Assembly (NCBI GenBank): GCA_001787535.1
Contig: MFXP01000004.1
Location: 1 to 64,000 of the forward strand
Length of the DNA stretch: 64,000 nt
Direction of reading: 5' to 3'
Origin: Candidatus Peribacteria bacterium RIFCSPHIGHO2_01_FULL_51_35
GTDB taxonomy: Bacteria > Patescibacteriota > Gracilibacteria > Peribacterales > Peribacteraceae
Positions 1 to 48,968 of the stretch are shown piece after piece. The position numbers and the translations under genes are program-made. The stretch's first letter is position 1. The number at the start of each line of letters is the position of its first letter. The notes below the pieces were generated by a model. The model was not told where the DNA came from. It saw only the letters and a list, made by a program, of their open reading frames with translations, and did not search any database.

Positions 1-491
1 GCTGATCATCCTCTCAGATCAGCTACCCGTCATAGGCTTGGTAAGCCGTTACCTTACCAACTACCTGATAGGCCGCAGGCCTCTCCCGAACCGATAAATC
101 TTTACTCGATTCCTCGCTACACTCGTCCTTTAGGTTTGTGATTGTTATGCATTCTCGGAGGGCTACATTGTTATATGGCTATATTGTTCGCAAGCGAACT
201 CAGATGTTTCCTGTAATAAGGAAAGACCTTTCTTGCTTGCTTAGCTAACAATATAACAATGTAGCAATATGACATTCCGATTTTTCATAACTTCCACAAA
301 CCTTCGATACAAGTGCAATGAGGAACCGAGACTATCCGGTATTAATCCGCCTTTCGGCGGGTTATCCCTGAGTTCGGGGGGAGTACCAACGTGTTACGCA
401 GCCGTTCGCCGTGGGTCTAAACCCACTCGACTTGCATGTGTTAGGCGCACCGCCAGCGTTCACTCTGAGCTAGGATCAAACTCTTCGAAAA
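1..491 (-). rRNA. rrs: 16S ribosomal RNA, 5' portion (3' part lies beyond the left window edge)
   Basis: Reverse complement reads AGAGTTTGATCCTAGCTCAG near 485-466, then GAACGCTGGCGG..CTAACACATGCAAGTCGA and, at the far end, GGTAGTTGGTAAGGTAACGGCTTACCAAGCC, all canonical 16S 5'-domain sequence. Confidence 0.96.
108..327 (-). repeat. IVS-like palindromic insertion in the helix-10 region of 16S (copy 1)
   Basis: About 220 nt separate ATACCGGATAGTCTC from AAAGATTTATCGGTTCGGGAG, where typical 16S has a short hairpin. Ends are complementary (gattcctcgctacactc / aagtgcaatgaggaacc), with a long internal stem ggctacattgttatat..gttcgc. Confidence 0.85.
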
Positions 492-656
492 TGGATACGA
501 CCATCGTTCTCCCTTCGATTGCTCTCAGGGTAAACTCCGGTCTCTCTCCATTGAGAGATGAACCCGCAGATCAGAGATCTGCTAGTTGCTGATTGCTTTA
601 TTTTCCATGGCGCAATCGACCATGTTAATTCCAAAGGAATTGGGGTCCGTGCACTT

Positions 657-871
657 GGTTCCTTGCTGTACTCGTTTCATGTGTGGATGTTGTTACACAT
701 TCTCGGAGGGTTACATTGTTATATGGCTATATTGTTCGCAAGCGATCATCAGATGTGTTGCATACAACAATCTTCTTCATGTGCTTAGCTAACAATATAA
801 CAATGTAACCATATAACAGTTCCGATTGTTACAATCTTCACAAATTTTTGATTCCAGTACAATAAGGAACC
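657..871 (-). repeat. Second copy of the 16S IVS-like palindrome, in the 16S leader
   Basis: Shares cattctcggaggg[t]tacattgttatatggctatattgttcgcaagcga and gcttagctaacaatataacaatgta with copy 1; bounded by ggttccttgctgtact / agtacaataaggaacc. Confidence 0.85.
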
Positions 872-1076
872 AAGGACGGACAAGCTTCTTCTCTACTACA
901 CGATGCTGTGAAGGAGCTGACCCTTCCGAGGCAAAGCCTTATACAGGGGGTAGGAAACTCAGCTTCTCGTCCACGCAAAAACGTAGGAACACAGAAGCAG
1001 CCGAACGATTTTACGCGTCCGGAACCCAGGGTCAAGCGCTTTTAATTTGTTTTGATGCATTCTTTTGCACAGTGAC

Positions 1077-28292: not shown

Positions 28293-28318
28293 GTGTGAGG
28301 TTGTGAGGGCACTAAAAA

Positions 28319-28408
28319 GTAAGGTAGGTATGGTAGGTAAGGTAAGTACGGCACATCAAAAAAACCTACCGTACCTACTGGACATTCCTGACCTACCTTA
28401 CTTCCTAC
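28319..28408. repeat. Inverted period-9 array between convergent genes
   Basis: GTAAG GTAGGTATG GTAGGTAAG GTAAGTACG; the right arm reverse complement reads GGAAGTAAG GTAGGTCAG GAATGTCCA GTAGGTACG GTAGGTTTT. Confidence 0.8.
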
Positions 28409-36821: not shown

Positions 36822-36839
36822 CCCTTTTGGGGAAAAACC

Positions 36840-36893
36840 AAGATACAAGACGCAAGAAACAGTCTGTATCTTGTCTCTTGTTTCTTGTATCTT
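36840..36893. repeat. Inverted period-7 array
   Basis: AAGATAC AAGACGC AAGAAAC AG .. GTATCTT GTCTCTT GTTTCTT GTATCTT. Confidence 0.9.
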
Positions 36894-36899
36894 TTCCGT

Positions 36900-37256
36900 A
36901 TGGTTTTGACTCCCTATCAAGTCGTTGCACCCATCTTTTCGCTGGTCGCGATCTTCTATGCTTGGAACTTGGTTGCCCGGCAGAAGAAGACAATCTGGGA
37001 AGCATTCTTCTGGACGCTGTTCTGGGGACTGGTGTGTGTCATCGCGCTCTACCCGAGCATTCTTTCGTATCTCTCCGCCGTGACGGGCATCGCCGACCAG
37101 GAGAATGCCGTGCTGGTCACCTTCCTTGGCATCCTCTTCTTCATCGTCTTCTATCTGGTGATCCGCTTGGAGGAATTAGAGCAACGTCATACAAAAATCG
37201 TCAGGGCGCTGGCTTTACGAGAAGCCGGGCTTGAGAAAGGGGAACAGAAGAATTGA
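36900..37256 (+). CDS. DUF2304-like membrane protein
   Basis: TPYQVVAPIFSLVAIFYAWNLVARQKKTIWEAFFWTLFWGLVCVIALYPS, next to the GT2. Confidence 0.75.
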   Translation: MVLTPYQVVAPIFSLVAIFYAWNLVARQKKTIWEAFFWTLFWGLVCVIALYPSILSYLSAVTGIADQENAVLVTFLGILFFIVFYLVIRLEELEQRHTKIVRALALREAGLEKGEQKN

Positions 37257-38464
37257 CAACGGACAATGTACAATGGACAACGTGTCAGTTTTCAATTGTC
37301 CATTGTCCATTTTCTCTCCACTTCTTGAATAACACGTCGCAACCTAAAGGCACAATTCTTCTGATCTCTCCTTACTGGAAAGAAGACCATCGCTGGATGG
37401 TGAGTTCTGTGAAGCTTGCGGAGCTTTGGCAAAGGATCGGATACAAGATCGTTGTTGTATGCATGAGCAAAAGTACGGGCGTGGATGTCGTGTCGGATAC
37501 ACTCACCATCCACCGTCGCAAAGATTTCTTTCTGCCCGATCCCTGGAACTACGGCATTGCGTTGGGATTTTCCGGTTATGTGCGACGGCTCGAAAAACAG
37601 ATCAAACCAGATCTCATCATCGTCAATAAACTCCTCTTCTGGACATCGCTTGTGACAGTGCCGCTCCGTCTGCGAGGCAAACGCGTGCTACTGCTGACCG
37701 ATGCCTTCGTCGGCATGACGTGGCAACCGCGTGCATTGCTTCCGAAGATCGTCATGGCGATGGGCGCATGGACGGTAGGTTGGACAATTCTTCTTGCCGC
37801 CTCGCGCGTCGTTACGTTCCACCCACAACCGCCGCAATTATTAAAACGGCTTGGCATTGCAAAGAAGACGAGTGTGATTCCGACGGGGATCGATCCAACA
37901 AACTTTGAAGAGCAGAGAGCAGAAAGCAGAGAGCAGAAAGTTTCGATCACATACATTGGGAGATTAGAATCTGTGAAAGGTGTGGACGATTATTTGGCTG
38001 CAGCAGCATCTTTACTGGCATCACATCCTGAGATGAATGTTCGAGTCGTGGGATGGTATAAAAAAAATCATCCACTTGTCGCTGCATACGGAAATCGTGT
38101 CACGTTCACGGGATTGCGACATGACATCCCTGCAGTTCTCGCGGAGACGGACATCTTCGTGCTTCCCAGTTACAGCGAGGGGCTTTCGAATGCCCTCATG
38201 GAAGCCATGGCCAGTGGTTGTGCGTGCATTGCAAGCGATGTGGGCGGCAACCGGTTCCTCATTCAGAACGGCATCTCCGGCTTGCTCTTCCCCGCAGGGG
38301 ATAGGGAAGCACTGGCAGCACACATCCGCAGACTTCTGGAGGACACGGCAAAGAGAGAATCCTTGGGGAAAGCTGCGCGAAGAAGAATTGATGAACAGTT
38401 CTCATGGAATGTGGTTTCGAGGCAGTATCAGAGCCTTTTTAAGGAGTTGGAATCTAGAAGCTGA
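37253..38464 (+). CDS. Glycosyltransferase family 4 (start uncertain; the N-terminal about 20 codons lie in a period-7 array)
   Basis: ILLISPYWKEDHRWMVSSVKLAELWQRIGYKIVVV..LPSYSEGLSNALMEAMASGCACIASDVGGNRFLIQNGISGLL. Confidence 0.92.
   Translation: MTTDNVQWTTCQFSIVHCPFSLHFLNNTSQPKGTILLISPYWKEDHRWMVSSVKLAELWQRIGYKIVVVCMSKSTGVDVVSDTLTIHRRKDFFLPDPWNYGIALGFSGYVRRLEKQIKPDLIIVNKLLFWTSLVTVPLRLRGKRVLLLTDAFVGMTWQPRALLPKIVMAMGAWTVGWTILLAASRVVTFHPQPPQLLKRLGIAKKTSVIPTGIDPTNFEEQRAESREQKVSITYIGRLESVKGVDDYLAAAASLLASHPEMNVRVVGWYKKNHPLVAAYGNRVTFTGLRHDIPAVLAETDIFVLPSYSEGLSNALMEAMASGCACIASDVGGNRFLIQNGISGLLFPAGDREALAAHIRRLLEDTAKRESLGKAARRRIDEQFSWNVVSRQYQSLFKELESRS
37255..37312. repeat. Inverted period-7 array
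   Basis: GACAACG GACAATG TACAATG GACAACG .. CAATTGT CCATTGT CCATTTT. Confidence 0.85.
37911..37940 (+). repeat. Period-7 array inside the GT4 gene
   Basis: AGCAGAG AGCAGAA AGCAGAG AGCAGAA AG. Confidence 0.85.
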
Positions 38465-48854: not shown

Positions 48855-48968
48855 CGGACACCCCCTCCCTACCCTCCCCCTTGAGGGGGAGGAGACGTCA
48901 TTTTTCAGAATCGAGAAAAATTACGTCCTCTCTCCCTGTAGGGAGAGAGACAGAGAGAGGGTGTCCGG
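48855..48968. repeat. Multi-stem palindromic element
   Basis: CGGACACCC .. CTCCCCCTTGAGGGGGAG .. CTCTCTCCCTGTAGGGAGAGAG .. GGGTGTCCG. Confidence 0.85.

Follow-up and report, generated by a model that had tools for sequence, protein, structure and literature searches.

A palindromic stem-loop insert in 16S rRNA helix 9 and its sister copy in the pre-16S leader of a Peribacteria genome

The closest described counterparts of the locus reported here are the intervening sequences (IVS) of bacterial rRNA and the insertions in the rRNA genes of CPR bacteria. Coxiella burnetii carries an IVS with S23p at helix 45 of its 23S rRNA, and both the functionality and the origin of IVS have been called unclear (PMC4990558). 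CPR rRNA genes hold many short, uncharacterised insertions at the tops or bases of stem-loops, some of them with GIY-YIG ORFs, and the survey that described these (Tsurumaki et al. 2024, PMC11270868) reported none for the 16S of Peregrinibacteria.

Here we describe a pair of related stem-loops, one within the 16S rRNA gene and the other in its leader, from Candidatus Peribacteria bacterium RIFCSPHIGHO2_01_FULL_51_35. The window that we analysed is a stretch of 64,000 nucleotides at the start of a 266,651-bp contig (C4) in a genome of 1.196 Mb and 18 contigs; coordinates below refer to this window unless a contig or locus is named. Our best explanation, to which we assign a probability of about 0.7, is that both copies are insertions of one IVS-like mobile palindromic element that landed on the hairpin tips of stable RNA precursors. 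The sister copies in 16S and leader within one genome, and the sharing of their arms with S23 loci, appear to be new, as we found no report of either among the titles and abstracts listed by our searches of open-access papers.

The 16S gene, its leader and the two copies

The 5' part of the 16S rRNA gene occupies positions 1–491 of the minus strand (Rfam RF00177, E 6.7e-65, model positions 1–308), with the mature 5' end at 491 and the gene cut by the contig end. The 3' part was found at C1:1–258 by a DNA query of the same genome; since C4 starts within the 16S, the middle of the gene is missing. The 23S does not come next after the 16S, and a DNA query placed its start on contig C3. Rfam searches of the genome for the two genes came back empty, evidently being too strict for fragments, whereas the DNA queries found both. 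The 23S fragment (L347:1–836, on C3) has inserts at LSU model positions ~169 and ~282 and a contig break inside a third near ~587. Such assembly breaks may be due to the rRNA inserts.

Copy 1 (105–330, minus strand) is a stem-loop insert at the tip of what we take, from the E. coli 16S map, to be helix 9. Against the Rfam model it adds 205 unmatched bases to the hairpin, directly 5' of a conserved AAAG, at a site that measures 10 nt in most relatives. Copy 2 (654–874, minus strand) lies upstream in the same orientation, as the first-pass annotation had noted, with 162 nt between position 654 and the 16S 5' end at 491. The two are 78% identical over ~220 nt (BLAST E = 1.8e-37) and are reciprocal best matches. 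Segment by segment, the outer arms are each 70% identical, the core arms 84% and 95% and the apical part 55%, and directly outside the copies the value falls to 22–31%; thus, the likeness ends abruptly and, against one doubt raised in advance, is not limited to AT tracts. These values also bear on the proposal that both are ordinary expansion segments, with helix 9 and the leader hairpin grown by slippage and their likeness a convergence of simple words. The arms are indeed made of 8-nt iterated words, but a likeness of this length and significance that includes the non-repetitive outer arms, together with the reciprocal best matching, makes such convergence highly improbable. An assembly artefact, the other doubt, is very unlikely in view of the 22% divergence, the unique flanks of both copies within one contig and the fact that four other genomes share the copy 1 outer stem at the corresponding 16S site. 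A search of the plasmid collection gave ordinary 16S matches only, and an Rfam scan of the region for group I and II introns recognised SSU rRNA only.

The leader shows where copy 2 is lodged. The 5' strand of the pre-16S processing stem (888–917, minus strand) bears a motif conserved in nearly all family relatives, and its complement lies at about 462–490 of C1, ~200 nt past the 16S 3' end. Inside this stem is a conserved leader hairpin, with the 5' strand GTCCGTC (875–881, minus strand) pairing with the 3' strand GCACGGAC (645–652, minus strand). Homologous short hairpins occur in many relatives, where they measure about 29–51 nt (e.g., TCCGTC..GCACGGA in genome G027), as against 237 nt here, because copy 2 sits on the tip. 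The leader spacing is 396 nt, versus 55–217 nt in 58 of the 59 measured relative loci; the single other long leader (283 nt), in genome G002, bears a stem-loop copy of its own. Transcription of copy 2 is implied by the processing stem and by where a possible promoter lies (TTGACC-16-TAAAAT, 1008–1035, minus strand; consensus scan only). Farther upstream of the 16S leader there is an iterated-word inverted repeat at 1078–1165, which by eye resembled the arms of S23 locus L111 and was rejected as their relative, with no match at E 0.01.

Both copies have complementary ends that form a long stem, as IVS do, with folds of −98 kcal/mol for copy 1 (z = −10.6 versus dinucleotide shuffles) and −83 kcal/mol for copy 2 (z = −7.6). 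The first-pass annotation described nearly identical cores together with an apical difference in which pairing was kept. The apical parts, however, have a 5-nt gap in addition to their low identity and permit no base-for-base alignment, so that tttcct/aggaaa in one copy and tgttg/caaca in the other amount to a replacement of the tip, with no clean compensatory set.

Composite anatomy and recurrence among relatives

Each copy is a composite of an rRNA-type outer stem around a core hairpin. The outer stem (CTYGGTNCCTY, 19 bp) is also present at helix 9 in genomes G021, G049, G052 and G072 (three genera), while within the present genome the 19-nt pattern is found solely at the two rRNA places. 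Among six sequences drawn from five genomes, 108 of the 114 cells in this stem are paired, with two-sided changes at 6 positions, and none of 2000 shuffles was equally well paired. This pattern of substitution supports constraint on RNA pairing in the outer stem, and to that extent the earlier suggestion of selection on RNA structure holds. Between the two copies the two-sided compensatory changes are modest; they are concentrated in the outer stem and, scored on the fold of the leader copy, number 8 pairs against 14 broken ones.

Conserved pairing of this kind, some compensatory changes and the position of both copies inside the pre-16S stem could also be read as signs of a functional pair, both stem-loops being kept because they pair with each other or because, as joint RNase III sites, they coordinate the maturation of pre-16S. 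However, both are absent from most family genomes, and an excised insertion predicts constraint on the outer stem equally well. Mutual pairing fares poorly in the fold models: duplexes across the copies reach −62.5 and −62.6 kcal/mol versus −68.9 and −85.7 kcal/mol for the local ones, and a joint fold of 930 nt places 80 and 78 pairs within the respective copies and none across them, which disfavours the cross-pairing of arms that had been suggested. We therefore judge a functional pair to be quite improbable; joint RNase III processing of the copies is plausible in itself, but neither it nor cross-pairing is needed or favoured.

The core hairpins lie at 156–279 in copy 1 and 704–824 in copy 2 (both on the minus strand). 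The core of copy 1, with arms of TTATATTG words and a CGCAAGCG motif, matches a dispersed genomic family in which TTGTTATA-like words are repeated along the arms and the same motif is usual; for the core of copy 2 the nearest match is that of copy 1, followed by the dispersed copies. As the two rRNA cores are mutually closest, the unit appears to have been duplicated whole. The search for more copies that had been proposed proved productive: beyond the two rRNA copies, the core family occupies at least 13 further distinct places in this genome, apparently short intergenic gaps where the context was read, and it is patchy among relatives, being found in 11 of 73 other genomes. The core is thus short and non-coding, with inverted arms and several dispersed copies in the manner of a MITE, while the outer stem has just two occurrences. 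At about 75–125 nt and with no consistent foot, the copies differ from REP elements, which are palindromes of 20–40 bp with a GTAG or CGTC foot.

Inserts at these sites are distributed sporadically among relatives, as is typical of IVS. At helix 9, inserts of at least 75 nt are present in 12 of the 57 measured same-family loci, our own included, and at helix 6, inserts of at least 48 nt are present in eleven measured same-family loci. The helix-9 insert of G049 follows the same composite design, and its core has 23 further matches in that genome. In G002 one stem-loop type is shared by 16S helix 6, the leader (85% identical) and the 23S (76%). A second G002 stem-loop sits at two 23S hairpins (91% identity, inverted); related stem-loops occur in genome G040 at 16S helix 9 (88%) and in the RNase P RNA of G002 (78%), directly before the CR-I motif GAGGAACGTCCGGGCA. 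This last stem-loop (L349:597–675) falls in the P3 region of a class A RNase P RNA, a host identification with E 7.6e-30 yet below the Rfam gathering score. Separately, open GIY-YIG frames of 83–88 aa (Pfam run on one) were seen between CCCCGCACCTTTTT arms inside the helix-9 inserts of three relatives (L051, L055 and L064), and the same arms occur without an ORF in L084.

These distributions help to weigh an alternative in which the leader copy arose by local duplication without any mobile element, through ectopic recombination, gene conversion or template switching of replication between hairpins, with the palindromic arms merely favouring the event; palindromes are known to provoke template switching. 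The two copies share an orientation and lie within 550 bp, their core arms are closer (84–95%) than their outer arms (70%), as expected from partial conversion, and no mobility enzyme, be it a transposase or a reverse transcriptase tied to the element, was identified. Local duplication is nevertheless at odds with the dispersal of core relatives in unrelated intergenic places and with related elements in the 16S, leader, 23S and RNase P of other genomes, including one inverted pair, and we consider it unlikely. The idea of a MITE-like element moving within the rRNA operon, which the first-pass annotation had offered beside RNA processing, is well supported by the dispersed copies, the patchy occurrence, the 16S/leader duplication in G002 and the ORF-flanking arms described below.

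S23 loci and the inserts of the 23S gene

The genome has 12 matches to the S23 family (PF05635; 23S_rRNA_IVP), 11 of them above cut-off, and at 7 of the 12 we found inverted flanking arms with scores above all 132 mismatched control pairings. At S23 locus L116 the gene-flanking arms match both rRNA copies, the best score beating 100 shuffles. Of the 23S inserts, the one at LSU model position ~169 has L110 as its sole S23 match and the one at ~282 has L118, each beating the best of 100 shuffles. Of the places beyond the 16S that had been advised for inspection, the 23S has inserts, though of other word families, and a third copy sought in the 16S 3' trailer was not found there.

Elsewhere in the window, iterated words at 28315–28405, 36833–36903, 37237–37326 and 48857–48965 match arms or flanks of S23 loci L114, L118, L115 and L117. 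Because such words are short and iterated, E-values carry less weight than usual here. A weak S23-like (Avd-like) gene, L120 (C16:21105–21410), adjoins a reverse-transcriptase-like sequence, and this region is a possible diversity-generating retroelement.

A broader and rather doubtful reading is that S23 genes mark a class of mobile palindromic elements. Derivatives of these that lack the ORF would then settle on the tips of hairpins in rRNA leaders, 16S, 23S and RNase P RNA, possibly by way of an RNA intermediate. S23 is not known to be a transposase or to have any mobility activity. If true, this reading would account for where rRNA intervening sequences come from and would implicate S23 proteins in mobility.

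Proposed course of events and comparison with known systems

On the preferred reading of both copies as insertions of one mobile element, the composite unit on 16S helix 9 would have been duplicated onto the tip of the conserved leader hairpin inside the processing stem; the 16S copy would be the source, its whole unit having moved or been copied ectopically to the leader. The direction from 16S to leader is suggested by the outer stem, which in other genomes was seen at helix 9 and in no leader. The 22% divergence makes the duplication old, and present-day activity does not follow from it. In the transcript, each copy is predicted to fold on itself into a long duplex cleavable by an RNase III-type enzyme, and by analogy with known IVS it would be a natural substrate for excision. 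Given such a duplex, the 16S copy is probably either excised, so that the 16S is split, or retained as a long spur that the ribosome tolerates, whereas the leader copy would be discarded along with the precursor. The palindromic units probably reach hairpin tips by moving or by ectopic copying, and their spread may have been driven by S23-bearing members or a partner that these need. The preference for hairpin tips could be a matter of survivor bias.

The locus bears on the origin of IVS and the role of S23 in that, within one genome, shared arm words connect S23 genes with rRNA inserts and with dispersed hairpins between genes, and the sister copies show that inserts are duplicated between rRNA sites. 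The commonness of 16S inserts in one Peregrinibacteria family bears on 16S-based detection.

Overall, the element resembles an rRNA intervening sequence in its presumed mode of action and a MITE in its appearance, and it is a candidate for, rather than an established member of, either class. It resembles bacterial MITEs and palindromic repeats (e.g., REP and RPE) in being short, non-coding, palindromic and dispersed, with one ORF-flanking relative, but differs in having no transposase family, no defined target duplication and no consistent GTAG/CGTC foot of the REPs (PMC3733652). The stem-loops of seven-nucleotide repeats in P6b of the Nostoc tRNA-Leu intron are alike in that short iterated words form a hairpin on a loop of a structured RNA and word classes are replaced; here, however, the words are unrelated and of 8 nt, the hosts are rRNA, leader and RNase P, and the portion of the Nostoc paper drawn on here has no S23 link (PMC4476775). 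With the CPR rRNA insertions it shares a CPR host and a stem-loop position, but, unlike in that survey, many genomes of the present Peregrinibacteria family have inserts at helices 6 and 9, and Rfam recognises no group I or II introns (PMC11270868). The closest likeness in kind is to bacterial IVS such as that of Coxiella burnetii, in the insertion at an rRNA hairpin, the long end-paired stem, the sporadic distribution and the link to the S23 family (PF05635), although the position at a variable rRNA hairpin tip applies to copy 1 only, since copy 2 lies in the leader, outside the mature rRNA. Unlike in Coxiella (PMC4990558), the 16S is also invaded here, the copies have no ORF, one has a sister in the leader, and the arms are built of iterated words that are common to dispersed intergenic copies and free-standing S23 loci.
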